From: Eggerthellales bacterium
Lineage (GTDB): Bacteria > Actinomycetota > Coriobacteriia > Coriobacteriales > Eggerthellaceae
Assembly: GCA_029006935.1 (NCBI GenBank)
Contig: JAQXGX010000034.1
Coordinates: forward strand, 1-36,012
Direction of reading: 5' to 3'
Length of the DNA: 36,012 bases
Below, piece after piece: positions 1,489-14,588 of this stretch. The position numbers and the translations under genes were made by a program. The notes under the pieces were generated by a model that saw only the letters and a list, made by a program, of their open reading frames with translations, was not told where the DNA came from and made no database searches. Positions within the stretch are counted from its first letter, which is position 1, and each line of letters begins with the position of its first letter.

Positions 1489-2127
1489 CTAAATGTTCAG
1501 CAGCTTGTTCCTAATGGCAAAATCCACCAGCTCAGCGCGGGATTTCAGATTCAGTTTCGCGTAGATCTTGGCCCTGTGGGCCTCCACCGTCTTGACGGAA
1601 AGGAACACCTTCTCGGAGATTTCGCGATTCGTATAGCCCTTGGCAAGCAGCTGGAGGATCTCCAGCTCACGCGGAAGCAGCGAAAGCAAGCGCTCGTTGC
1701 TGCCCCGCTCGGCTTCGTAGCGCTCCATGATGGGCTTCATCTTGGGGTGGATGTAGCGCCCTCCAGCGAACACGGTGTTCACCGCCTCGATCAGCTCCTC
1801 CTTGCTCGCGTTTTTGATCAAATAGCCGCTTGCCCCGCAGCGCATGGTGTAGTCAAGGTACTCGGGCTCCGCGAACATGGTCAGAATCACGATCTTGGTC
1901 TGAGGCAGATCCCGGGCTATTTCCTCGCAGGCCACCATGCCGCTTTGCCCAGGAGGCATGGAAATGTCCAGAAGCAGCACGTCCGGCTTTTCCCGCGAAA
2001 CCACGGCATACGCCTGGGTCCCCTCGGCCGCTTCCCCCACCACGGTAATGTTGGGATCCGTTTCCAGCAGCATCTTGAACCCGCTGCGGACGATCTCGTG
2101 GTCATCGGCTAGCACAACGCGAATCAT
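1489..2127 (-). CDS. NarL/FixJ-type response regulator, 212 aa
   Basis: The receiver domain (about 1-120) has the acidic pair D8-D9, the phospho-acceptor D54 in LLLDISMPPG, T83 and K105. A LuxR-type helix-turn-helix follows at about 146-205, with LPRELEILQLLAKGYTNREI and VKTVEAHRAKIY typical of NarL/DegU DNA binding. It starts 11 bases after the stop of the histidine kinase gene, so the two are surely cognate and co-transcribed. Lying last in the nitrate-respiration cluster, it is the likely regulator of that cluster. The inducing signal is inferred, not shown. No binding sites could be assigned. Confidence 0.93.
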   Translation of the reverse strand: MIRVVLADDHEIVRSGFKMLLETDPNITVVGEAAEGTQAYAVVSREKPDVLLLDISMPPGQSGMVACEEIARDLPQTKIVILTMFAEPEYLDYTMRCGASGYLIKNASKEELIEAVNTVFAGGRYIHPKMKPIMERYEAERGSNERLLSLLPRELEILQLLAKGYTNREISEKVFLSVKTVEAHRAKIYAKLNLKSRAELVDFAIRNKLLNI

Positions 2128-2138
2128 GACTACTCCTT

Positions 2139-3335
2139 CTACCGGTCAGGGGCCGATCCCATGGGAGCGGTCAGCGTGATCAGCGTTCCCTTCGGGCCAG
2201 ACTCAATGCTCAGCTCCGCATGGATCAGCGACGCTCTCTCCCGCATTCCTGGAAGGCCGCAACCGCTGCCACGCACGACCGGCTTCTCCGTGTCAAAGCC
2301 CGAGCCATGGTCCTGAACCGAAACCATGATCCAGCCGTTGGAGGCGGTCAGGGTCACCTCTATGTGGTCGGATTCGGCGTATTTGCTGGCATTGAGCAGC
2401 GCTTCCTGGCAGATGCGGTACACCTGGGTTTCCAGAGCAGGGTCGAAGCGGGGAATCTGCAGGTCGCCCAGGAACTCAATGCGAGCACCATAGGCACGCT
2501 CGAAGGCCAGGGCCCGGGAGCGCAGGGCGGGAAGAAGCCCGAAGTGATCCAAGGTGGAAGGACGAAGCTCCACCGAAAGGTCGTGAAGCTGCTCAAGGGC
2601 CATGTCGATTCCCGCGCAGACTTCCTGCAGCATCCCTTCCTGATCGGAGTCCTGCGCCAACCCCAAGGCAAGGCGCGCCTTCATAGCCGCCACCGCCAGC
2701 TCCTGGGAAATGCCGTCGTGGATTTCTCGGGAAATGCGCGTCCTTTCCTGCTCCTGGGCATGAATGACCAGGGAAACGCTGGAGTTGCTCATCGCGAACA
2801 AGCTTGCGGAGCCCACCGGCTCCACCGTGGACTTGCTGACCTCCTCAAAGTCCATGAAATCCTGGGCAACGACCTCAAGGTCACAGAACCGTCCGTCCAG
2901 CTCCCGCACGCATGACCGGAATGCAAGGACGTGGGCCTCCTTTGCCGTACGAAAGGCCATGAGCAGCACTCCCACCGTTCGGCTGTCCTTGCCCAGGGGC
3001 AGCGCGCAGAAGCTTCGCAGGTCTTCGGCAAAGACGATGGGATAGGACGAGTATTCCCGAGGATCCATCTCGGTATCTATATCGGTGAAGAGCATGGGCT
3101 TGCCCGCCTTCAGCACAATGCCGCCAATGCCCCGTCCGGGAGCAAGCATGATGCGGCGGAAGCGGTCGCTGGTGCTCCCCTGGCTGTACAACCACTTCAG
3201 CGGAGCACCAGGGAGGGCGGCCAGGCCCACGGCGGTGAAGTCGAACCCGTAATCGGTTCCCAGCCGCTTTACCTCATCGGCGTACTGGGTGCATTCTCCA
3301 TTCAGCGTGGCTTCAGAAAAACTCCAAAGGCCCAT
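2139..3335 (-). CDS. Cytosolic GAF-domain sensor histidine kinase (HisKA_3, NarX/NreB/DegS class), 398 aa
   Basis: Residues 1-150 look like a GAF domain, with PGRGIGGIVLKAGKPM at 66-81 and FCALPLG at 109-115. They are followed by a HisKA_3 dimerisation/phospho-acceptor helix in which SREIHDGISQEL puts the phosphorylated His at 206. The HATPase_c domain has its N-box around N315 (EALLNASKYA) and glycine boxes at DHGSGFD (342-348) and GSGCGLPGMRERA (356-368). There is no membrane segment and no NreB-type four-cysteine cluster, so sensing must be cytosolic through the GAF domain. The GAF domain recalls the stand-alone nitrate sensor NreA of staphylococci, here fused to the kinase; that similarity is judged by eye. 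The partner is the regulator 11 bases downstream. Confidence 0.92.
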   Translation of the reverse strand: MGLWSFSEATLNGECTQYADEVKRLGTDYGFDFTAVGLAALPGAPLKWLYSQGSTSDRFRRIMLAPGRGIGGIVLKAGKPMLFTDIDTEMDPREYSSYPIVFAEDLRSFCALPLGKDSRTVGVLLMAFRTAKEAHVLAFRSCVRELDGRFCDLEVVAQDFMDFEEVSKSTVEPVGSASLFAMSNSSVSLVIHAQEQERTRISREIHDGISQELAVAAMKARLALGLAQDSDQEGMLQEVCAGIDMALEQLHDLSVELRPSTLDHFGLLPALRSRALAFERAYGARIEFLGDLQIPRFDPALETQVYRICQEALLNASKYAESDHIEVTLTASNGWIMVSVQDHGSGFDTEKPVVRGSGCGLPGMRERASLIHAELSIESGPKGTLITLTAPMGSAPDR

Positions 3336-3426: not shown

Positions 3427-4332
3427 CTAGCTGTCCTTGAAGCGTACACCCACGGAAAGGCACTTGGCAGGACACACGTCCACGCACTTACCGCAGAGCA
3501 TGCAATCTCCCGCCCTCACGACAGAAGCAGAGCCCTCCACGACCGCATCCAGAATCTGAGGGTCGCACAGGCAGGCTTCCTTGCACTTGTTGCAGCCGAT
3601 GCACGTATCGGGCTCGGCAGAAACGCTCACCAAGCCCACCTTGCCCAGGACCTGGTAGAACCCGCCCAACGGACAGAGGGAACGGCACCAGACCCTATGG
3701 CCCCAGAACAGCTCGGCAACCACGATGGCCGCAAGGGTCACGCCTCCTACGGTGGAGCCTAGCACCAGACCCTTGTTCAAAAAGCTCACGGGCGAAAGGA
3801 CCTCGAACACCGGCACGCTCACCAGCGCGGAAAGAACCAGCACCGCCGCGGCAACATAGATCTTGGCATGCCTGGGCACGACCCGCTCGGCAAGCTTCTG
3901 ACCAGGGCGAACCCGACGACGCAGCCAATCGACCGCTTCCAGAACCAGGTTCACCGGGCAGACCCAGCCGCAGAACACGCGGCCGCGAATCAAGCCGTAC
4001 ACGATCAGCACCGGCAGCAGCCCTATGATCCAGTCCGGGGAAATGGTCTTGGCCGCGAAGATCGTCTGAAGCACGGCAAAGGGATCCAGCAAGGTCACAG
4101 GACCTACGCTGGAAGACGAAAGCGTGCCGAAGAACGGCAGGCTGGAGGGAGCCAGAACGGCATCGTCCGAAAGCTCGGAGAACGCACCGTTCTGACCGAA
4201 CAGAGACCAGCCCGCGGCCACGACCGGAACGCAGAACAGCAGCAACGCAAGGACCTGCACCACGTGCCTGCACGCACTCAGGCCGAACTTGCCTCGCTTC
4301 CCTTCTTTTTTCCGCTCATCCTTAGCAGCCAC
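3427..4332 (-). CDS. napH: NapH-like membrane ferredoxin, quinol dehydrogenase component, about 301 aa
   Basis: A polytopic membrane protein with about four hydrophobic segments. It carries two CX3CP motifs on loops (CGWVCP and CRSLCP) and two C-terminal 4Fe-4S motifs (CIGCNKCKEAC and CMLCGKCVDVCP). This is the NapH pattern. NapH passes electrons from quinol to NapG and on to the periplasmic nitrate reductase. I place the start at a GTG (4332) because GAGGAG lies 7 bases upstream of it; an in-frame TTG at 4347 has no such site. The gene follows napD by 19 bases and precedes the histidine kinase gene by 91 bases. Confidence 0.88.
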   Translation of the reverse strand: MAAKDERKKEGKRGKFGLSACRHVVQVLALLLFCVPVVAAGWSLFGQNGAFSELSDDAVLAPSSLPFFGTLSSSSVGPVTLLDPFAVLQTIFAAKTISPDWIIGLLPVLIVYGLIRGRVFCGWVCPVNLVLEAVDWLRRRVRPGQKLAERVVPRHAKIYVAAAVLVLSALVSVPVFEVLSPVSFLNKGLVLGSTVGGVTLAAIVVAELFWGHRVWCRSLCPLGGFYQVLGKVGLVSVSAEPDTCIGCNKCKEACLCDPQILDAVVEGSASVVRAGDCMLCGKCVDVCPAKCLSVGVRFKDS

Positions 4333-4351
4333 GGGCTCGCTCCTCAAAACT

Positions 4352-4606
4352 CTAGATACCGTCCGGGTAAAGGGACGGATCGTCCTCGAAATTCACATAC
4401 ACCAGGTTCACGCCCAGAACGCCGGGAATGGCCGCAAGGCTGCTCGCAACATCATGGGAGTCGTCTACCGTGTTAGCCTCGATGGTGATGACGATCTTGA
4501 AGTCGTTGATCTCATGCACCTCCACGCCCGGATGCTTCGGCAGCTCGGCAGCCACTTCCTCCGTCTGGTCCGCAACGGTGCTCACCAGCAAGCTGGAAAT
4601 AACCAT
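4352..4606 (-). CDS. napD: NapD-like chaperone for NapA, 84 aa
   Basis: A short cytosolic protein starting MVISSLLVS, with the beta-alpha-beta pattern of NapD: a HPGVEVHEI segment, then FKIVITIEA, then a helix and IPGVLGVNLVYVNFED. NapD binds the twin-arginine signal of NapA and holds it back until the molybdenum cofactor is inserted. Its ATG overlaps the TAA of the preceding dihaem cytochrome gene (TAATG), so the two are translationally coupled. Position between the nap structural genes supports the call. Confidence 0.87.
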   Translation of the reverse strand: MVISSLLVSTVADQTEEVAAELPKHPGVEVHEINDFKIVITIEANTVDDSHDVASSLAAIPGVLGVNLVYVNFEDDPSLYPDGI

Positions 4607-4977
4607 TACTTGCCCGCCTCGTTCTTGGAGGCCCCGGTACTCACGCCCGGAACATGGCAGGTGATGCACTGGGAGTGATCAGCAGCCAGATCCTTGATAG
4701 ACGTTGGGACCTCCACGGCATAGTGGTCAGCCGGCAGGGCGGTAGCCGATGCCAGCATGGGGTTGGCGTCCTGATTCGCCCCGTGGCATCCGTAGCAACC
4801 GTTGGCTCCCAGGTCCGCATACCTGTTTTCATGACCCGAAGGCATGGTGGGCGCCGCACCCTCGGGCACGTTGGCGTTCACGTCCTGCTTGGCAGGAGCG
4901 CTTCCGCACCCCGCCAGGGCCGTGGCGCCCAGTACCGCAGCCAAAGCCAGGGACAAGACCGTAACCTTGAGCTTCAT
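4606..4977 (-). CDS. Dihaem c-type cytochrome lipoprotein, NapB-like electron-transfer subunit, 123 aa
   Basis: A lipoprotein signal peptide ends in LAGC with Cys24 as the lipidated residue. The mature part has two haem-c motifs, CYGCH (61-65) and CITCH (104-108), and several other histidines (49, 85, 101) that could be distal ligands. It follows napA by two bases and overlaps napD, so it is the probable electron donor to NapA, as NapB is in proteobacteria. The lipid anchor fits a monoderm cell with no closed periplasm. It is only distantly NapB-like by eye, so I give no symbol. Confidence 0.85.
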   Translation of the reverse strand: MKLKVTVLSLALAAVLGATALAGCGSAPAKQDVNANVPEGAAPTMPSGHENRYADLGANGCYGCHGANQDANPMLASATALPADHYAVEVPTSIKDLAADHSQCITCHVPGVSTGASKNEAGK

Positions 4978-4979
4978 GG

Positions 4980-7571
4980 CTAGCCCACCTTCTCTACCTT
5001 CACGCAGGTCTTCTTGAAGTCAGGTTCCTTGGAAAGCGGGCAGTAGGCTTCCTGGACCACCAGGTTGATCAGGGTCTCCTCAGCGAAGAACGGAGCGAAC
5101 AGATACCCCTCGGGCGGCTCGGTGCGGCCGGCAGTGGAAACGGTGATCTCCACTTCGCCCCAACGGCTGGTCAGCTTCACGCGGTCGCCGTCCTTCAGGC
5201 CCAGCTTCTCCACGTCCTTGGGATTCATGTCCAGCAGCGCTTCGGGCAGAGCGCGGTTGAGCTCTTCGACGCGACGGGTCATGGAGCCGGTGTGCCAGTG
5301 CTCCAGCAGACGACCGGTGCAGAACACGAAGGGGTATTCCTTGTCCGGCACCTCTGCCGGAGGCTCCCACGGACGGAACACCACGGAGGGACGACGGTCG
5401 GCGCTCTTGTAGAAGCTGACGCCCTTGCGCAGGCCCGCCTCGCCGTACTGGCTCACGCCGTACTCGTCGAAGCCGTCCTCCTGCTTGCCGTCGCTGAAGC
5501 GCCACTTGGTGGCGTACCACTTGCCATCCACCTCGCGGCAGGGCCAGGTCATGCCATGGTTTTCGATGTACTGGTCGTAGGGGGCCAGCTGCTTGGCCTC
5601 CATCTTCATGACGCCCCAGCCTTCCACCTGGTCCACGTTGTCGTGAATGTCCAGCACCCGCTTGCTGGAGTAGGAGTTCTGGTTGGGATCGGGGTTGCTG
5701 AAGGTGCGGTACTCGTTCCACATCTCGGTCAGGACCTCGCGCTGGGTTTCGAACTTGAAGTCAGCGGCTTCCTTGTCATACCACTTGCCGAACAGGGCGT
5801 CGAAGGCGTCTTCCTTGCCGATCTTTTCGCCCTCAAGAACGCGCTTTGCGATCTCCATGAGCATCCACATGTCCCACTTAGCCTCTCCCGGAGGATCGAT
5901 GGCCTTTTCGAACACGGCGGTGCGACGCTCGCCGTTGCCGAACATGCCTTCGCGCTCAACCCACATGGCAGCAGGCAGGACCACGTCAGCGTACTGGGTG
6001 GAAAGGGTGGGATAGACCTCGCTCACGGTGATGAAGCAGTCGAAGACGCCGTTGTGCTCGCCGTCGCGGCCCAGGAAGCGGGTCAGGTCGGTCATGGATT
6101 GAGCCCAGTTGTTATGGGCGGTCCACAGGAAGTCCAGGTTGCCGTTGGACATTTCCCGGAACATCTTGGTGGTGTGATAGCCGGGAACGGCAATGTCCTC
6201 CAGCCAGCCTTCGGGAAGGTTCCACACGGCCTCGGTGTAACGACGATGCTGCGGGTTGGCCACGACCAGGTCCGCGGGGAGGCGGTGGCAGAAGGTACCT
6301 ACCTCGCGGGCGGTACCGCAGGCGGACGGCTGACCCGTCAGGCTGAAGGGACCGCAGCCCGGCTTGGCGATCTTTCCGGAAAGCAGATGGATGTTGTAGA
6401 TGTTGTGGTTCACCCAGGTGCCGCGGTTGTGCTGGTTTACGCCCATGGTCCAGAAGCTGGTGATCTTGAGCTTGGGATCGGCGAAGGCCTTGTACAGGGT
6501 CTTCAGGTCATCGATGTCCATACCGCTGATCTTGCTGGTGTACTCCCAGGTGTACTTCTTCAGGCGCTCCGCGTACTCTTCGAAGGTGCAGGGCTTGACC
6601 GCGTCGGCGCGCTGGCCGTCTTCGCTCTTGTCGTAGGCGTCCTTGACCTCCCAGTCGGAGTTGCCTATGTTTTCCTCGCCCATCTTGAACTGCAGATGAT
6701 CCTTGACGAAGGCTTCGTCGTAGGTCTTGTTCTGGATCAGATAGTTGGCAATGCAGTTCAGAATGGCCAGGTCGCCGTTGTTGCCGAAGATCATGACCTT
6801 GTCGGCGTTGGCGGAGGTGCGGGTGCGCAGGGTGGTCACGTCATAGTGCTTGCAGTCAGTCTGCTGCATGTGGGCCATGAACCGGGAGTACAGCATAGGA
6901 TGGGCTTCCGCCATGTTGGCGCCCCAGGTAATGATCAGATCGGCGTCGTCAATGTCGGCGTAGCAGCCGGCGGGCTCGTCGGTCTGGAACACGTTCATGA
7001 AGCCAACCACGGCGCTTGCCATGCACAGGCGCGCATTGGGGTCGATGTTGTTGGAGCGCAGGCCCGCCTTCCAGAACTTGGCGGTCGCGTAGCCTTCCAG
7101 GATGGGCTGCTGGCCGGATCCCCAGAAGCCCAGACGAGACTTGTCCTTCTTCCACGTTTCCTTGAGCTTGGAGGAAACCAGGTCCAGTGCCTCTTCCCAG
7201 GTGGCCTCCCTCAGGCCCTCCGCGGTGCCCTTGGTGGACTTGTCGTCACGGATAAGGGGCTTGGTCAGGCGGTCTTCGCCCGTGAGCGCCTTGGCCAGGT
7301 AGTAGCCCTTCACGCAGTTCAAGCCGCGGTTCGAATCGTTGTCCGGGTCGCCCACCACGCTGATGAGCTTGCCGTTCTTGCTCTGCACCAGCACGCCGCA
7401 GCCGCAGCCGCAGAAACGGCACACGGAAAGCTTGGTCTCGGTGTCAGCGCCGTTGGAGGGCGTGTTCTCCTTAGGAGAGCATCCCACCATGGTGGAAAGG
7501 GTGCCCGCTGCCGCTGCGCTGGCGAGCGCAACCGCGGTGCTCTTGATAAACGATCGCCTTGAAACGTCCAT
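4980..7571 (-). CDS. napA: Periplasmic-type nitrate reductase catalytic subunit (molybdopterin oxidoreductase), 863 aa
   Basis: The N-terminus has a twin-arginine signal SRRSFIK (4-10) followed by a hydrophobic stretch ending MVGC at 28-31, a possible lipobox. The 4Fe-4S cluster uses C51, C54, C58 and C86, with the conserved Lys88 in NCVKG. The molybdenum ligand is Cys183 in NARLCMASAV. The C-terminal molybdopterin-dinucleotide-binding region is present (GRLLEHWHTGSMTRR, then VKLTSRWGEVE). Length is slightly above the usual 830 or so residues. The ribosome-binding site GGAGGAA sits 6 bases before the ATG. Neighbours napG-, napD- and napH-like genes and a dihaem cytochrome make nitrate the likely substrate, though related enzymes reduce other substrates. 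Confidence 0.93.
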   Translation of the reverse strand: MDVSRRSFIKSTAVALASAAAAGTLSTMVGCSPKENTPSNGADTETKLSVCRFCGCGCGVLVQSKNGKLISVVGDPDNDSNRGLNCVKGYYLAKALTGEDRLTKPLIRDDKSTKGTAEGLREATWEEALDLVSSKLKETWKKDKSRLGFWGSGQQPILEGYATAKFWKAGLRSNNIDPNARLCMASAVVGFMNVFQTDEPAGCYADIDDADLIITWGANMAEAHPMLYSRFMAHMQQTDCKHYDVTTLRTRTSANADKVMIFGNNGDLAILNCIANYLIQNKTYDEAFVKDHLQFKMGEENIGNSDWEVKDAYDKSEDGQRADAVKPCTFEEYAERLKKYTWEYTSKISGMDIDDLKTLYKAFADPKLKITSFWTMGVNQHNRGTWVNHNIYNIHLLSGKIAKPGCGPFSLTGQPSACGTAREVGTFCHRLPADLVVANPQHRRYTEAVWNLPEGWLEDIAVPGYHTTKMFREMSNGNLDFLWTAHNNWAQSMTDLTRFLGRDGEHNGVFDCFITVSEVYPTLSTQYADVVLPAAMWVEREGMFGNGERRTAVFEKAIDPPGEAKWDMWMLMEIAKRVLEGEKIGKEDAFDALFGKWYDKEAADFKFETQREVLTEMWNEYRTFSNPDPNQNSYSSKRVLDIHDNVDQVEGWGVMKMEAKQLAPYDQYIENHGMTWPCREVDGKWYATKWRFSDGKQEDGFDEYGVSQYGEAGLRKGVSFYKSADRRPSVVFRPWEPPAEVPDKEYPFVFCTGRLLEHWHTGSMTRRVEELNRALPEALLDMNPKDVEKLGLKDGDRVKLTSRWGEVEITVSTAGRTEPPEGYLFAPFFAEETLINLVVQEAYCPLSKEPDFKKTCVKVEKVG

Positions 7572-7616
7572 GATCTTCCTCCCAGTCTTCCTTGCGGCCT
7601 TGCGGCCGGACTCCTT

Positions 7617-8225
7617 CTACTTACTCCCCTTTGCCTCTTGCTCGGCCACGCTCACGATACGAATGGGGACGGCAGGATCGCTAATGACGCAACGCTCCAC
7701 GCACAGCCCGCAACCTGTGCACGTTTCCCGATTGATCGTGGGCGCAAATTGCGCATGGATGGAATCTCCCTCAAGGCTGCCGAACTGCACGGTAATGGCG
7801 CGGTCGATGAGGGGACACACGCGATAGCACACCTCACAGCGCATACCCTTGAAGGCAATACAGGTGTTTTCGTTGATGACGGCATAACCCATGTTCACGT
7901 CGGCGCGGGTGGCAACATCCCGCAGGGCCTGGGTAGGGCATACGTTCACGCAGGGAAAGTCTTCGCACATACGGCAGGCCTGACGTCGAGCGTCGATGAA
8001 GGGGGTTCCGGCGGCAGAGCCTTCCCCCACACCCGCGATCTGAATGGCCTGGTAGGGGCACGCCTGCTGGCACTTGCCGCACTTGATGCAGCGCGCCATG
8101 AAATCGGCTTCGCCCTGGGCTCCTGGAGGGCGCAGAAGACTCGATGGCCCCTTGGCCACCGCATAAGCGCCCTGTGCCGCAATGAGGACAGCGGCTATTC
8201 CTGCTGCTGCTTTTTCAACTCCCAC
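7617..8225 (-). CDS. napG: NapG-like polyferredoxin, about 202 aa
   Basis: Four cysteine clusters for 4Fe-4S centres are visible in order: CIKCGKCQQACP, then CRMCEDFPCVNVCP, then CEVCYRVCP with an upstream cysteine, then CTGCGLCVERC. This is the MauM/NapG arrangement, which transfers electrons between NapH and NapA. The N-terminus is a hydrophobic helix rich in Ala, with no twin-arginine pair, unlike NapG of Escherichia coli. I choose the GTG at 8225 because GGGGGT lies 5 bases upstream; the TTG at 8237 falls inside a hairpin. It is the first of the nap genes proper and follows the ccm block across a 99-base gap. Confidence 0.85.
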   Translation of the reverse strand: MGVEKAAAGIAAVLIAAQGAYAVAKGPSSLLRPPGAQGEADFMARCIKCGKCQQACPYQAIQIAGVGEGSAAGTPFIDARRQACRMCEDFPCVNVCPTQALRDVATRADVNMGYAVINENTCIAFKGMRCEVCYRVCPLIDRAITVQFGSLEGDSIHAQFAPTINRETCTGCGLCVERCVISDPAVPIRIVSVAEQEAKGSK

Positions 8226-8234
8226 AGATACCCC

Positions 8235-8267
8235 CAAAACAGCGTGGAACCTGGTAACGCTGTTTTG
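8235..8267. terminator. Perfect 11-bp inverted repeat between the ccm and nap genes
   Basis: CAAAACAGCGT (8235-8245) is the exact inverse complement of ACGCTGTTTTG (8257-8267), with an 11-base loop. The A-tract and T-tract flanks of a CAGCGT/ACGCTG core resemble a bidirectional intrinsic terminator. On the minus strand the stem ends just before the napG ribosome-binding site. A separate T6 run lies upstream, just after the ccmD-like stop. The structure may attenuate transcription into nap or separate the two transcripts by processing. Confidence 0.5.
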
Positions 8268-8324
8268 AGTATGGCAGATTCCCCGGGCACTTCCTTCAGG
8301 TCGAAAAAAGACGCGGGTTTTCCC

Positions 8325-8531
8325 CTATTCCCCAGGCGTGCGGGCAGCGTCGGCCCTCAGGTCCTCCACCTGCTCCTCCAGAAGCATGAGCTGCTTTTCC
8401 AGCTTGCGCTGCTTGCTGAACTGCACGAAGAGCCATGCCAGAAGAAGGGCCCACAGCAGCGCGTATGCGGCAATCACAAAGGGAGCGCTGGGAATAATGG
8501 TGCTGTAAATCTGCTCAAGAACCGAATTCAT
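8325..8531 (-). CDS. Small single-pass membrane protein, CcmD-like, 68 aa
   Basis: One transmembrane helix (about 17-37) is followed by a charged helix that may form a coiled coil (QRKLEKQLMLLEEQVEDL). CcmD of other bacteria is also a tiny single-helix protein encoded straight after ccmC, where it helps release haem-loaded CcmE. The ATG lies three bases after the ccmC stop codon. Sequence similarity to CcmD is too weak to judge by eye, so the call rests on size, topology and position. Confidence 0.65.
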   Translation of the reverse strand: MNSVLEQIYSTIIPSAPFVIAAYALLWALLLAWLFVQFSKQRKLEKQLMLLEEQVEDLRADAARTPGE

Positions 8532-8534
8532 GGG

Positions 8535-9347
8535 TTAGTCCTCCAAGGCGTTCTTCAGGGCGCTCACCCGCTCCTCAAGACGGGCGTTGCGGAAGCGGAT
8601 GCGATACATGACGAAGGCAAGGCACAAAAAGCCCGCAGAGCAGATGCCCACGCACAAGCCCATTTCCGGCGTCATGCCTCCTTCGCGAAAGACCACAGGG
8701 TGCAGGCTGGTGGGAATGACCCTGGTCACCAGCATGGTAATGGGCACGTCAACGAAGCTGATCAGGGCAAGCACGGAAGCGTACGTGGCGCGACGCTCGG
8801 GCTCGTCGATGGCGTTGCGCAATATGAAGTAGCCCAGCACCAGGATCGTAAGCACCAGGTACGTGGTCAGACGGGGCTCCCAGGTCCACCACACGCCCCA
8901 CTCGAAGCGCGTCCACATTTCCCCGGTGATCATGGTGGCCACCACGAAGACCAGCGCCACTTCCATGGCGGTCTTGGAGCAGGTATCGTAACGCTGCTGG
9001 CGGGTGGTCAGGTAGCGCAAGGCGTAGAAGGCTGCCGCCACCATCACCGCCATGGAGGTAATGGCCACCGGCATGTGGAAGTAGAAGATCTTCTGGGAAA
9101 ACAGCAGCTTGTTGGAAACCATCTGGCCCCCGATGAGCTCCACTCCGTCAACAGACGCCCCGTTTACCGGGGCTATGAAGAAGAACGCCATCAAAAAGCC
9201 CGCCGTGGTGAGCATAAGCGCGGCGGCGGTGGCAACGGGCGCCAGCTTGTCCGGCCATTGTCCCATCTCAGGCAAGCCCAGGGCGAAAGGAGCAGCCTTT
9301 CCCGCCTTCCCCTTGGGGCCCGGGCGGCTCGAGCTAGAACTCACCAT
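8535..9347 (-). CDS. ccmC: CcmC haem-handling membrane protein, about 270 aa
   Basis: Six hydrophobic segments are visible, with the tryptophan-rich WWD-type motif GVWWTWEPRLTTYL and flanking histidines (YFHMPVAI, TSLHPVVF) expected to bind haem. CcmC loads haem onto CcmE during cytochrome c maturation. An in-frame ATG at 9407 would overlap the ccmB coding region; I prefer the ATG at 9347 because GGAGG lies 8 bases before it. It sits between ccmB and a ccmD-like gene. Confidence 0.92.
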   Translation of the reverse strand: MVSSSSSRPGPKGKAGKAAPFALGLPEMGQWPDKLAPVATAAALMLTTAGFLMAFFFIAPVNGASVDGVELIGGQMVSNKLLFSQKIFYFHMPVAITSMAVMVAAAFYALRYLTTRQQRYDTCSKTAMEVALVFVVATMITGEMWTRFEWGVWWTWEPRLTTYLVLTILVLGYFILRNAIDEPERRATYASVLALISFVDVPITMLVTRVIPTSLHPVVFREGGMTPEMGLCVGICSAGFLCLAFVMYRIRFRNARLEERVSALKNALED

Positions 9348-9399
9348 ATGTCCAACCTCCTTTGCGGCGATCCGCTCCGCGCAGGGAGCGCTTTCCGCG

Positions 9400-10119
9400 C
9401 TAAGCACTCACAACAAAATCGTACAAAACCCAACTCAGCAGCACCATGACCACGTCATAGCCTGCGACCAGAGCAACTGCTGGCACGAAGGCGTCCAACG
9501 CCGCCGGCGTTCCCACAATGGCCGCCGTGGTCGCGCTCACGCAGGCATACAGCAGCGGAAAGGTCAGGGGAATGAACAGCACCGCCAGCATCACGTCCTT
9601 GCCCCGGGTGTTGGCGGTAATGGTGGAAAGGAGCGTACCCACGCCGCTCATCCCCACCGTTCCCAGCACCAGCGGGACCAGGGCCAGGGGCAGGCTGGAG
9701 GAAGCCGATACGCCGCCCATGAAGAAGAACCAGAAGACCGGCACCGCCACCACCTCAACCAGCAAGGTGAACAGCAGGTTGCTGACCATCTTGGCAAGAT
9801 AGATGGCACCGCGGTCCAGCGGCGCCAGCAGCAGGCCCTCCAGGCAGCCGTTTTCCTTTTCGTAGGCAAAGGATCGGTTCAGACCCATGAGGCTGGTGAA
9901 CACGAAGAGCGTCCAGAGCAGCCCGCCGCTCATCTGCTGCACGTCCAGGCTGGCAGAAACCTGCGTGAGCGCGGCTCCGAACACGATCAGCACCAGAAGG
10001 GCGTACACGCCCATGGAGGTGATCATTTCCCGAGTGCGGATTTCCCGACGCAGGTCCTTTGCCAGCAGCTGCTTGAACTGAGCCCAGGAGCTGGGCTGCT
10101 CCACCACGGCGGGCTTCAT
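9400..10119 (-). CDS. ccmB: CcmB haem-exporter-type ABC permease subunit, 239 aa
   Basis: A polytopic membrane protein with six hydrophobic segments. The N-terminal FKQLLAKDLRREIRTREM and the segment FAYEKENGCLEGLLLAPLDRGAIYLAK are characteristic of CcmB. With CcmA it forms an ATPase that, in known Ccm systems, releases holo-CcmE from CcmC. It begins directly after the stop of ccmA, so it is translationally coupled to it. Confidence 0.92.
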   Translation of the reverse strand: MKPAVVEQPSSWAQFKQLLAKDLRREIRTREMITSMGVYALLVLIVFGAALTQVSASLDVQQMSGGLLWTLFVFTSLMGLNRSFAYEKENGCLEGLLLAPLDRGAIYLAKMVSNLLFTLLVEVVAVPVFWFFFMGGVSASSSLPLALVPLVLGTVGMSGVGTLLSTITANTRGKDVMLAVLFIPLTFPLLYACVSATTAAIVGTPAALDAFVPAVALVAGYDVVMVLLSWVLYDFVVSA

Positions 10120-10833
10120 CTAGCTCACCCCCCGGCCTACGGTCTGCGCGTACAGGTCGGAAAAGGCGTCAAATGAAAGCTCTTCCTTAGGGGCGAAGCT
10201 TGTCACGCGCCCCTTGGACAGCAGCAGCTCATGAGTGCACATCCCATAGCCCTTCTCCAGGTCATGACTGACCATGACGAAGGTCCGGCCCGCGCGAACC
10301 TGGTCTATGAGCTGGTCGAACACCGCGACCGCATGGGGGTCAAGGCCCGCGTAGGGTTCGTCCAGGAACACCAGCTGCGGATCATGGAGCAGGGCGCGGG
10401 CAATGGCCAGGCGCTGGGTCATGCCCCGGGAAAACCCCCGCACCACGTCCAGGCGCCTGTGCTTCAGCCCCACCGCCTCCAGAAGCTCCATGACACGGCC
10501 TTCGGCGTTGCGCACCCCGTACAGGTTGGCAAAGAGCATCAGGTTCTGGTGGGCGGAAAGGTCCGGGTACAGCATGGGCTCATGGCTGATCAGACCGATG
10601 CGCGAACGAACCTGGTCCGGCTCCTTCTGCAGGTCAAAGCCCAGGACCCGAGCAGATCCGGCGCTGGGCCGCGCCACCGTGGAAAGGATGCGCAGCAGCG
10701 TGGTCTTGCCCGCGCCGTTGGGGCCGAACACAGAAAGAAATGCCCCCTCCGGCAGGGAAAAGCTCACGTTGTCGAGGGCGCGCCGCTCCCCGAACTGCTT
10801 GGTCAGACCTGAAACCCGCAGCACCTCACTCAT
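10120..10833 (-). CDS. ccmA: CcmA ABC ATPase subunit, about 237 aa
   Basis: The protein has a Walker A motif GPNGAGKTTLL, an ABC signature FSRGMTQRLAIARAL, a Walker B with catalytic Glu (LVFLDEPYAGLD) and a switch His (VMVSHDLE). These are all the parts of an active ABC ATPase. The start at 10833 is supported by AAGGAG upstream and overlaps the end of ccmF by 8 bases. Order ccmF-ccmA-ccmB-ccmC identifies it as the ATPase of the cytochrome c maturation complex. Confidence 0.93.
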   Translation of the reverse strand: MSEVLRVSGLTKQFGERRALDNVSFSLPEGAFLSVFGPNGAGKTTLLRILSTVARPSAGSARVLGFDLQKEPDQVRSRIGLISHEPMLYPDLSAHQNLMLFANLYGVRNAEGRVMELLEAVGLKHRRLDVVRGFSRGMTQRLAIARALLHDPQLVFLDEPYAGLDPHAVAVFDQLIDQVRAGRTFVMVSHDLEKGYGMCTHELLLSKGRVTSFAPKEELSFDAFSDLYAQTVGRGVS

Positions 10834-13000
10834 GGTCCTGCTCCTTCGCCACATCCAAAGGCTTTTTCGCCCTGCTGACGGACCTGCGCCCGAAGGCGGC
10901 AACGAGCGCCCCCAGCGTCAGAAGCACCAAGCCCAGCCACACCAGGCCGATGAGGGGATTCACCCGCACGTCCAGGGAAAGCCCGCCGTTTGAAGAGCTC
11001 ACTCCCTTGTAGACCACGAACAGGTCTTCCGTTGGCAGGCTGATGACCGCGGCGTTCTGCTGCTGTTGCTGCGTGCTGGTGACCAGGGTGACCGAGGGGC
11101 TTGCCTGACCCAGCGGCGCTCCGTCCTTGGTCACGTCGAAGTTGACCTGGTACACCACGTTACCGTTATCCTGCGGGGTCACGCTGCTTCCCGTGAAGGT
11201 GAGCTCGTAGTCCTTGATGGTGAACGTTTGGGAGGCGGTGTCGGTCTTGGAATCATAGGCCAGATATCCCGACTGCTCGGTCACATACATGGAAGAGCCG
11301 ATCAGGCCCGCCAAGATCACCGCCATGGCCACGTGGGCCACGCCGCCGCCCAACAGGGACGCGCGCCTGGCCCTGAGGCCCTTCTTGAGCATGAGCAGGG
11401 AATTGCCCAGGAGCAGGCTGGCCACCGCCAGCCCCATCACGGTCAGGCCCTTGTAGTACCACGCCGGCCCCTGCTCCACCAGGTCGGCGGCAATGCTGCC
11501 CCCTGCCGCCAGGGATGCGTCGTAGGAAGGGCTCAGGACCAGCACGAAGTAGGCCATGAGCAGGACGAAGGTCACCGCACAGACCCCGCCTGCAACCTTC
11601 AGGCGCCCCAGCCCCTTGCGTAAGTCGGACCCGCCCCAGGAAAGCAGCGGGCATACTGCTACGAGCAGCAGGTACAGAATGCCCAGGGGACGGGCCAGCA
11701 TGTTGTAGGCGCCGGCAGGAAGGGACTGTCCGCCCAGGGGAAGGAAGCTTGGCAGGGCAGAGCTCACCGTCAGGTAGGTCAGCAGCACCGTAGCAGCGAC
11801 CATGAACACGTTGTTGAAGAAGTAGAAGTCCTCCCGGGTCAGCAGGCTTTCCGCCCGGGCGGGCTCGGCTTCGCCTTCGCCCATAGGAGCACAGGCTTCA
11901 GGCGCGGAAGAGGCCTCGGAAGCCCCGATGCTCTTACGGCGCAGCACCACTCCCGCAATACCCACGCCGAAGGAGATCGCGATCAGAGCTCCGAACAACG
12001 CAAGGGAAACCGGGTCTCCCTCGAAGGCGTGAACCGATTGCACCAGGCCGCTGCGGCTGATGAAGGTGCCCACGATCACGAACCCGTAGGTCAGACACGC
12101 GCACAGAAGCGCCCAGCCCTTGAAGATCCCCCGCTTTCGGCACATGGTCATGCTATGGATAAGGGCAACTCCCATGAGCCATGGCAGCAGGCTGGCGTTT
12201 TCCACCGGGTCCCAGCCCCAGTAGCCGCCCCAGCCCAGCACCACGTAGGCCCAGACGCTGCCCAGCCCAATTCCCACGGTCAGGAACAGCCAGGACGCCA
12301 GGGTGATGCGATTGGAGCGGTCGATCCAATCCTTGGAGTAGTCGTTGCAGACAAGCGCCGAAACCGCATAGGCAAAGGGCACGGTCAGGCCCGCGTATCC
12401 CACGAACAGCAGCGGCGGGTGAATGGCCATGGCCCAGTGCTCCAGCAGCGTGTTCATGCCCATGACCGTTGCCGCCGTGGTCAGGGTGCCGTCGGGGCCG
12501 TAGTACCGAGATTCGGTGGCGGAAAAGGGAGCGTTGGCGTCGCTGAACAGCAGCACCCCCAGAAACGCCGCCAGCACCGACTCCATGACAAGCACCGCGC
12601 AGGTGTCCAGCTTGGCAAGCTGGTCAAGTCGACGCAAGGAAACGATCAGGGAGAACAGGCTGATGAGCCAGCTCCAGAACAGCAGGCTGCCTTCGCGACC
12701 CGCCCAAAGGCCGGCTATGTTGAAGAGGACTCCCATGAGTCCCGTGGATCGGGAATGCTGGTCAAGCACGTACTGCAACGTGTAGTCACCCGTCAGGAAA
12801 CAGAACATCAGCACGCCACAGCACACGGTCAGCGCGGCAAAGCACACGGCAACAACGATGCGCCCCGCCCACACAAGGGACTGGGCCAGGTCGGCTCCCC
12901 TGGACCGGGCCGCCAGGACCTGGCCTACCGCCAGAAGCAGCACGCTTGCAACGCTGGCCACGAACGCCAGCAGCAGGCCCATTGCTCCCAGAAAGCCCAT
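10826..13000 (-). CDS. ccmF: CcmF haem lyase membrane subunit, 724 aa
   Basis: A large membrane protein with more than ten hydrophobic segments and the WWD haem-handling motif GGYWGWDPVENASLLPW. Conserved histidines include those in HWAMAIHPPLLF and FISRSGLVQSVHAF. CcmF attaches haem to the CXXCH motifs of apocytochromes. A soluble loop follows near the C-terminus (about 590-690), with a low-complexity glutamine run in TSTQQQQQN. The gene starts 3 bases after ccmE and has GGAGGG 7 bases before the ATG. No ccmG, ccmH or ccmI gene lies in the window. Confidence 0.94.
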   Translation of the reverse strand: MGFLGAMGLLLAFVASVASVLLLAVGQVLAARSRGADLAQSLVWAGRIVVAVCFAALTVCCGVLMFCFLTGDYTLQYVLDQHSRSTGLMGVLFNIAGLWAGREGSLLFWSWLISLFSLIVSLRRLDQLAKLDTCAVLVMESVLAAFLGVLLFSDANAPFSATESRYYGPDGTLTTAATVMGMNTLLEHWAMAIHPPLLFVGYAGLTVPFAYAVSALVCNDYSKDWIDRSNRITLASWLFLTVGIGLGSVWAYVVLGWGGYWGWDPVENASLLPWLMGVALIHSMTMCRKRGIFKGWALLCACLTYGFVIVGTFISRSGLVQSVHAFEGDPVSLALFGALIAISFGVGIAGVVLRRKSIGASEASSAPEACAPMGEGEAEPARAESLLTREDFYFFNNVFMVAATVLLTYLTVSSALPSFLPLGGQSLPAGAYNMLARPLGILYLLLVAVCPLLSWGGSDLRKGLGRLKVAGGVCAVTFVLLMAYFVLVLSPSYDASLAAGGSIAADLVEQGPAWYYKGLTVMGLAVASLLLGNSLLMLKKGLRARRASLLGGGVAHVAMAVILAGLIGSSMYVTEQSGYLAYDSKTDTASQTFTIKDYELTFTGSSVTPQDNGNVVYQVNFDVTKDGAPLGQASPSVTLVTSTQQQQQNAAVISLPTEDLFVVYKGVSSSNGGLSLDVRVNPLIGLVWLGLVLLTLGALVAAFGRRSVSRAKKPLDVAKEQDHE

Positions 13001-13003
13001 GAG

Positions 13004-13681
13004 CTAACCCTCCAGGCTCACGCTGGTTGCGGTGAACAGGCCGGACGCGTCTACGGAGCCCTGGACCACCACCTGGGTCTGGGCCCTGACGTCATCAGGA
13101 AGCGCCCCGGCAAAGCTCACCGAAACGATCTTGGCATCAGCGCCATCGGCAGCCTGAACGTCGCGCAGCTGGAAGCGGATCTTCTGCGTGGCGTCGGCAG
13201 GATCGGCGCAGAGCAGGCCGGTGACCTTCACGGTCTTGCCCAGCACCTTTTCGCCATACTCAAGGAAGCGCCCCACGCCCAGGGCGGAGCTGGCGTTTTC
13301 GTACTTGGACGGGCACTTGGTAACCAGCTCTGAGCACTCCAGCACGCCGCCGTTCATGCGGCCGGTGCAGATGGCAGATACGCCGTTGCCGAAGGTGGCG
13401 GAAACGCCCTTGTCGTAGACCACGCGCACCGATTGGTCGACGCTGCCTTCGGGGTCGAACACGCTAAAGGTCAGCACGCCGTTTTCGTCAACGCTAAAGG
13501 AGTTGTCCACCACGGTGCAGGTGACCTGGATCTTCTTTCCCTCCAGGGAACCCGATGCGGCATCTGCCACCGAGGTGACCGTTGCCGCCGAGCTGCCGCC
13601 GACCACCGCGAACAGCAGGATCGCCACCACGGCGATCGCCCCCGCCACCACGATGAGACGTCGTTTGGTCTTTGCGTTCAT
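13004..13681 (-). CDS. ccmE: CcmE-type haem chaperone with Cys in place of the haem-binding His, 225 aa
   Basis: One N-terminal membrane helix (about 8-28) anchors an OB-fold domain whose end reads GGVLECSELVTKCPSKY. In proteobacterial CcmE the haem binds covalently to His in HXXXY; here C123 and Y127 form CXXXY, the variant described for archaeal and some deltaproteobacterial Ccm systems. A second OB-like segment follows (about 145-224, from GKTVKVTGLL to FTATSVSLEG) and makes this protein longer than usual CcmE (about 160 residues). The ribosome-binding site is GAAAGGA. It precedes ccmF. Confidence 0.85.
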   Translation of the reverse strand: MNAKTKRRLIVVAGAIAVVAILLFAVVGGSSAATVTSVADAASGSLEGKKIQVTCTVVDNSFSVDENGVLTFSVFDPEGSVDQSVRVVYDKGVSATFGNGVSAICTGRMNGGVLECSELVTKCPSKYENASSALGVGRFLEYGEKVLGKTVKVTGLLCADPADATQKIRFQLRDVQAADGADAKIVSVSFAGALPDDVRAQTQVVVQGSVDASGLFTATSVSLEG

Positions 13682-13835: not shown

Positions 13836-14588
13836 CTAATCGGCGTAAACCTGCCCCTCCAAATCGTAGCTGATGTACTGGTTCTGGAGCTGGGTGGATT
13901 CGTCGTAGCTCAGCCAGCCGGTGGGAACCTGGGCATCGTCATGACACTGGGTGCAGACCATCACGGAAGCGCGATGGGACTTGTGGCAGTCGCTGCAGGT
14001 GTACTCGGAGTGATGCCAGGAATGGGGGTTGCGCTCCAGGTTTGCCGTGGCGTCGGTCAGGTCGGACTTTGCCATGTTGTGGCAGGATTCGTTCAGGCAG
14101 AAGGTGGTTCCCTCAACGTTGTGCCAGCGCTGCAGGTTGTCCAGGCTGCGCTCGGAAAGCGGGTTGTAGAAGTTGCCCGTCACCCATTCGATTCCCTCGG
14201 TCATCTGCTCCTGCAAGGTCGGCTCGTGACAGGAAAGGCAGTTGGCATCCGCGTACGCGCGATGCGTGGCGGAAAGCATGCCGGAAGCATCGGCGACCTG
14301 GTTGCCCCACTTGTCCGTGGCGGGCTGACCCGGCTCGGAATAGTAGGTGGGATTGTACGGGTCCTGCGGGTTATGGCACAGGAAGTCACAGAACTCAGGC
14401 GTGTTATGGAAGTTCCAGAAGCCGATTCCCCCGATGGCAACCACCACTACCAGCACGGCGGTAACCACCTGCCACTGGTAGAAGCGACCGACCTTCTTGG
14501 TGAAGCGCTTCTTCTTCCCCTTCTCCGCCTTCTCCGCTGCTTCGGACTCAGCGACGGTTGCCTCGTTCTTCATTTGCTCCTCAGCCAT
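13836..14588 (-). CDS. NapC/NrfH-like membrane multihaem cytochrome c with five haem motifs, 250 aa
   Basis: A charged cytosolic N-terminus, one membrane helix (about 39-58) and an outer domain with five haem-c motifs: C67-H72 (CX3CH, CDFLCH), C117-H121 (CLSCH), C164-H170 (CX4CH, CLNESCH), C198-H202 (CSDCH) and C212-H216 (CTQCH). The NapC/NrfH family takes electrons from menaquinol and feeds periplasmic reductases; members usually have four haems with CX2CH. The gene is first in the cluster, ahead of the ccm and nap genes, so NapA via the dihaem lipoprotein is the likely acceptor. No NrfA gene accompanies it. The ATG has GGAGGGGG upstream. Confidence 0.87.
   Translation of the reverse strand: MAEEQMKNEATVAESEAAEKAEKGKKKRFTKKVGRFYQWQVVTAVLVVVVAIGGIGFWNFHNTPEFCDFLCHNPQDPYNPTYYSEPGQPATDKWGNQVADASGMLSATHRAYADANCLSCHEPTLQEQMTEGIEWVTGNFYNPLSERSLDNLQRWHNVEGTTFCLNESCHNMAKSDLTDATANLERNPHSWHHSEYTCSDCHKSHRASVMVCTQCHDDAQVPTGWLSYDESTQLQNQYISYDLEGQVYAD

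Follow-up and report, generated by a model that had tools for sequence, protein, structure and literature searches.

The window, by which we mean the whole stretch of 36,012 nucleotides analysed here, carries on its minus strand a gene for a predicted multihaem quinol dehydrogenase, followed by a ccm set and a nap set. The order is pentahaem gene, ccmEFABC(D), napG, napA, napB, napD, napH, and the features are as follows.

13836–14588, minus strand: predicted pentahaem membrane-anchored quinol dehydrogenase, Cgr1/NrfH-like and a predicted NapC equivalent, 250 residues (open reading frame, NF051471, hhalign, 104 relatives)
14409–14486, minus strand: transmembrane helix, residues ~35–60 (AlphaFold2 helix; hydrophobic segment that aligns with the membrane helix of NapC)
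14373–14390, minus strand: haem 1 motif CDFLCH (CX3CH), residues 67–72, predicted quinol side (CX3CH in 104/104 relatives; aligned with NapC CISCH)
14364–14366, minus strand: Gln75, counterpart of NrfH Met49 (Met in 90/104 relatives)
14226–14240, minus strand: haem 2 motif CLSCH, residues 117–121 (104/104)
14196–14198, minus strand: Glu131, counterpart of the NapC Glu and NrfH Asp89 (Glu in 97/104, Asp in 4/104)
14079–14099, minus strand: haem 3 motif CLNESCH (CX4CH), residues 164–170 (CX4CH in 96/104, CX2CH in 8/104)
13983–13997, minus strand: haem 4 motif CSDCH, residues 198–202 (104/104)
13941–13955, minus strand: haem 5 motif CTQCH, residues 212–216 (104/104; past the end of the NapC alignment)
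13004–13681, minus strand: CXXXY-type CcmE (CPSKY motif), in which a second CcmE-like repeat follows at the C-terminal end (PF03100, two stretches)
10826–13000, minus strand: CcmF haem lyase (PF01578 and PF16327)
10120–10902, minus strand: CcmA, ABC ATPase (PF00005; position within the conserved ccm cluster)
9400–10119, minus strand: CcmB (PF03379)
8535–9407, minus strand: CcmC (PF01578; TIGR01191)
8325–8531, minus strand: CcmD-like small membrane protein, 68 residues, between ccmC and napG (PF04995, 17.4 bits, below cut-off)
7617–8237, minus strand: NapG (NF007012, 214 bits, below the cut-off of 269)
4980–7571, minus strand: NapA catalytic subunit (NF010055, 893 bits, below the cut-off of 904)
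4606–4977, minus strand: NapB-type dihaem lipoprotein (PF03892, 27.9 bits, above cut-off)
4352–4669, minus strand: NapD (PF03927)
3427–4347, minus strand: NapH (NF007013, 204 bits, below the cut-off of 234)

The pentahaem gene starts at an ATG at 14588 with a ribosome-binding site, GGAGG, just 5' of it. A first-pass annotation of this DNA had described a CX3CH motif at residues 67–72 and a CX4CH motif at residues 164–170 beside three CX2CH motifs, and these residue numbers are correct for the minus-strand reading frame. The resulting spacings of 3, 2, 4, 2 and 2 depart from the four-CX2CH pattern of NapC/NirT/NrfH, and neither odd motif can be read alternatively as CX2CH. An assembly indel is excluded, since the same spacings are present, as CDFLCH and CLNEACH, in a relative of ~80% identity (L002) that comes from a second, independent genome of this genus. 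dN/dS between these two genes is 0.23, and on this comparison of sequences the window gene is under purifying selection.

How widespread is this arrangement? A scan with patterns from one sequence returned two relatives only, as expected of patterns derived in that way, and a whole-genome search was used instead. Among 398 genomes of the class Coriobacteriia (E ≤ 1e-6), the family is present in 141 genomes and in 59 of 153 genera; in 396 genomes searched across the phylum, members were confined to the order of the window's genome, and no origin outside Coriobacteriia was found. We aligned 104 distinct proteins taken from fetched loci, all passing the E ≤ 1e-6 threshold. Every one of them has all five motifs, with a spacing of 3 at haem 1 and of 2 at haems 2, 4 and 5, and at haems 1 and 3 neither the cysteines nor the histidine ever vary. 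Haem 3 has a spacing of 4 in 96 relatives. The eight relatives with a spacing of 2 are distant members (families f15, f5 and f10), and parsimony on a quick tree places four changes in this spacing; CX4CH is therefore not strictly required. These alignments indicate that the odd spacings are a fixed trait of a large Cgr1-type family, neither chance nor an assembly slip. Thus, the expectation that they would be conserved among Coriobacteriia homologues held, with the cysteines kept in every relative, and the idea that the pair is a peculiarity of one protein did not: it is common to the family, and CX3CH near a membrane helix has already been reported for ImcH and some CymA proteins. Outside the motifs, His109, His189 and His205 are conserved in all 104 relatives, His61 in 98 and His193 in 91. 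These five would suffice as a second ligand for each haem, and any assignment of one to the other is putative.

The closest named family is Cgr1. The window protein matches NF051471 (Cgr1) over its full length (residues 38–234 on model positions 7–204 of 204, E 7.4e-83), with a score of 277.2 bits that lies below the equivalog cut-off of 340. Its PF03264 score, 18.9 bits, is likewise below the cut-off of 24.1. All 85 aligned relatives match NF051471 and Pfam Cytochrom_c3_2; 24 match PF03264 at E ≤ 0.01, and 20 match TIGR03153 (NrfH) at the threshold used. A comparison of profiles with hhalign aligned the family with E. coli NapC (probability 95.1%, E 3e-8) across the membrane helix and haems 1–4. 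In this alignment, NapC CISCH pairs with CDFLCH (one residue longer), CPDCH with CLSCH, CRNCH with CLNESCH (two longer) and CIDCH with CSDCH, and the haem 5 motif is a C-terminal addition outside the aligned part of NapC. The homology bears out the earlier description of a NapC/NrfH-like membrane quinol dehydrogenase with five motifs. The family profile also matches the flavocytochrome c3 tetrahaem domain (PF14537) at haems 3–5 (E 3e-8). An AlphaFold2 model of the window protein (pLDDT 85) has one long helix at residues 35–60. Foldseek returned no significant match to this model in the PDB, the best being flavocytochrome c3 at E 0.8, an unsurprising outcome since the model has no haems.

These likenesses each have limits. 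Cgr1 of Eggerthella lenta, described by Koppel et al. as a NapC/NirT (NrfH)-like protein with CXXCH motifs and with a core homologue reported in E. lenta (PMC5953540), shares full-length homology and a single membrane helix with the window protein, and the family members examined have the same five motifs, CX3CH and CX4CH among them. Unlike Cgr1, which is proposed to serve the flavoprotein Cgr2, the window protein has Gln for Met after haem 1, scores 277 against 340 bits and lies beside ccm and nap rather than in a Cgr2-type operon, its likely partner being Nap. With NapC/NrfH (PF03264, TIGR03153) it shares the membrane helix, four haems in the same order and the acid matching NrfH Asp89, but differs in the spacing of 3 at haem 1 and 4 at haem 3, the fifth haem, the missing Met of CXXCHXM and the sub-cut-off Pfam score. 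It resembles the flavocytochrome c3 domain at haems 3–5, without the fused flavin domain and with a membrane helix and an extra haem.

Odd spacings of this kind have precedents elsewhere. CX3CH next to a membrane helix has been reported for ImcH of Geobacter and for R. ferrireducens homologues of CymA (PMC6295460), a likeness in the position of the motif; ImcH carries seven motifs (six typical and one atypical) and spans the membrane with three helices, whereas the window protein has one helix and five motifs. MmcA of Methanosarcina acetivorans has one CX3CH and one CX4CH, both of which carry haem by mass spectrometry, and its host has a Ccm system with a CXXXY-type CcmE and no CcmH (PMC11024163, PMC9084895). 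MmcA is unlike the window protein in having seven haems and no membrane helix and in being OTR-related. Both CX3CH beside a membrane helix and haem-loaded CX3CH and CX4CH sites are therefore already known. For the five-motif CX3CH and CX4CH pattern of the Cgr1 family, we found no description in the literature searched, which mostly excluded subscription journals.

The ccm set next door had been called non-standard, and it is: its CcmE carries CPSKY, and CcmH (PF03918) was not found in the window's genome. That genome is a metagenome-assembled genome (MAG) in 197 contigs with 7% contamination, and all absences from it are provisional. CPSKY is present in 35 of 35 distinct CcmE proteins of the loci examined. 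Variants of cytochrome b562 with CX3CH or CX4CH can also receive haem from the E. coli Ccm system, and a need of these motifs for the variant Ccm type, one of the two options raised by the earlier description, is at most putative; CX4CH itself is not obligatory, given the eight relatives with CX2CH at haem 3. Here, the adjacent variant Ccm system, with its CXXXY-type CcmE and without CcmH, probably attaches all five haems, those on CX3CH and CX4CH included. The second repeat of the window CcmE follows CPSKY and lacks the haem-binding residue; in Coriobacteriia CcmE examples 94–98 residues follow the motif, and the CcmE of locus L120 likewise shows two Pfam stretches.

What does the pentahaem protein serve? 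On a quick tree, the window copy falls within a nine-member clade (SH-aLRT 90), and seven of the other eight members adjoin napG or other nap genes (L003, L005, L006, L008, L009, L012 and L013); the contig of the eighth, L002, ends after ccmF. Context labels come from clustering with Pfam checks of representatives. The order in L012 is ccmEFABC, pentahaem gene, napG, napA, napD, napH, and in L003 the pentahaem gene ends 10 bp before napG. The clade spans several genera. NrfA was not found in the window's genome (provisionally, for a MAG in 197 contigs), nor in genomes G234, G375 and G278 of the same clade, and clade members with NrfA carry nrfA elsewhere. The pentahaem gene is present in a single copy in the window's genome; a search of that genome with the CX2CH pattern was swamped by chance matches.

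We therefore consider it likely that the window gene encodes a pentahaem menaquinol dehydrogenase equivalent to NapC, which supplies periplasmic nitrate reduction through NapB to NapA. The motifs and their conservation, the NapC homology, the gene context and the finding of neither NrfA nor a second copy carry this reading. All five motifs are predicted to bind haem. The quinol-side haem is probably haem 1, which CX3CH would hold beside the membrane helix, and menaquinol would be oxidised near it at the membrane surface. Electrons would then pass through haems 2–5 to NapB and NapA, with haem 3 attached through CX4CH and haem 5 lengthening the NapC-like four-haem chain. The pentahaem protein would thus stand in for NapC in the genome of this gut-type bacterium, with Nap as its probable partner. 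Observations that count against this role are Gln75 where NrfH has a Met reported as essential, the PF03264 score below cut-off and the lack of a significant Foldseek match, and the absences that speak for it are provisional. Moreover, NapGH is also encoded here, and in Wolinella, as cited in PMC12780646, NapGH can carry electrons from menaquinol to Nap with no NapC involved; the pentahaem protein therefore need not be the sole or main Nap donor.

NapB was found in genomes G000 and G234 and not in G366, G325, G278, G136 and G275. In genomes of the latter kind, the pentahaem protein may feed NapA directly. The fifth haem had been proposed as a bridge to the dihaem lipoprotein; however, none of the 104 relatives lacks its motif, even where no NapB was found in the genome, and haem 5 therefore did not arise for that purpose. 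Nap loci beside a pentahaem relative and with no NapB found in locus or genome are L003, L096, L097, L100 and L101. After napH, on the same strand, the window encodes a histidine kinase, part of which resembles NreA, and a response regulator of the LuxR type (1489–3335), and a similar pair follows nap in L101.

Could the gene instead be a relic NrfH? Most ccm-bearing relatives have the order nrfA, pentahaem gene, ccmE, ccmF, ccmA, ccmB, ccmC (NrfA confirmed by PF02335), so nrfA may have been lost from an ancestral nrfA-nrfH-ccm arrangement, leaving a protein that is now a general menaquinol outlet or is decaying while NapGH feeds NapA. The failure to find NrfA in the window's genome fits such a loss, and Wolinella, as cited in PMC12780646, offers a precedent for supply by NapGH only. 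However, decay is at odds with the purifying selection on the gene, and the nap linkage of the clade over several genera, even in genomes that have nrfA at another place, together with the close spacing to napG in L003, argues for an association with Nap. We regard a relic as unlikely.

Service to an exported flavoprotein reductase encoded elsewhere in the genome, as proposed for Cgr1 and Cgr2, is more doubtful again. Besides the kinship with Cgr1, many relatives adjoin FAD_binding_2 proteins, and the window's genome has one strong FAD_binding_2 match plus a 560-residue FAD_binding_2 frame. Yet no such gene lies within the nap-ccm directon, full-length FAD_binding_2 proteins are few in this genome, and the clade is linked to nap, all of which makes this partner quite improbable. 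Finally, a trihaem cytochrome in which the CX3CH and CX4CH sites lack haem and their cysteines have another role is hardly credible: haem c uptake by heterologous Cgr1 could not be shown (PMC5953540), but the two cysteines and the histidine of each motif are invariant, both motifs align with true NapC haem sites, and the corresponding MmcA sites are loaded (PMC11024163, PMC9084895).

If the protein is a NapC-equivalent menaquinol dehydrogenase, the ligand of haem 1 deserves attention. The quinol-side haem of D. vulgaris NrfH has the Met of CXXCHXM as its ligand and an aspartate opposite, and Met49 and Asp89 are described as essential for menaquinol oxidation. The NapC Glu falls on NrfH Asp89 in an alignment of the two, the family alignment puts Glu131 there, and this position is acidic in 101 of 104 relatives. 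Judged by this alignment, the window protein retains the acid and not the NrfH-type methionine. In most of the 90 relatives that keep Met, it lies at +3 from the haem 1 His; in some relatives, with CHNM, it is at +2, the NrfH position. Gln75 is shared with L002, L005 and L006 and with a second group (L032, L045, L047 and L049), and the quick tree has five changes in the methionine state. We do not claim that Gln75 is tied to nap linkage, since nap-linked relatives with Met exist. Tentatively, and with rather more doubt than belief, we suggest that the members of the nap-linked clade form a type of quinol dehydrogenase of their own, which replaces NapC. The CX3CH quinol-side haem of the window copy and its closest kin would have lost the NrfH Met and use another ligand, for example His72 or the conserved His61, and the site of menaquinol oxidation would be a haem with changed, possibly bis-histidine, ligation. 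The change from Met to Gln offers a natural test of the need for methionine at haem 1 in menaquinol oxidation.

Cgr1 belongs to a well-known case, the inactivation of the drug digoxin by a gut bacterium. Koppel et al. failed to obtain haem-bearing Cgr1 and suspected that foreign maturation factors did not suit it (PMC5953540). A testable reason for that failure is offered by the CX3CH that never varies and the CX4CH that rarely does, together with the CXXXY-type CcmE encoded in all ccm clusters we examined. Additionally, the family pairs one quinol-oxidising module with nitrite reductase, nitrate reductase, flavoproteins and aldehyde oxidoreductase-like enzymes across Coriobacteriia. The last of these partners was unexpected: members of family f3 (L076, L078, L080, L081, L083, L087 and L088) immediately follow an aldehyde ferredoxin oxidoreductase-like gene (PF01314). 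Three extended relatives of 432–553 residues (L082, L084 and L085) have nine haem motifs, the first still CX3CH, and one locus (L114, positions 7535–9280, genome G211) carries a tandem pair of family members near an acyl-CoA synthetase-like gene.
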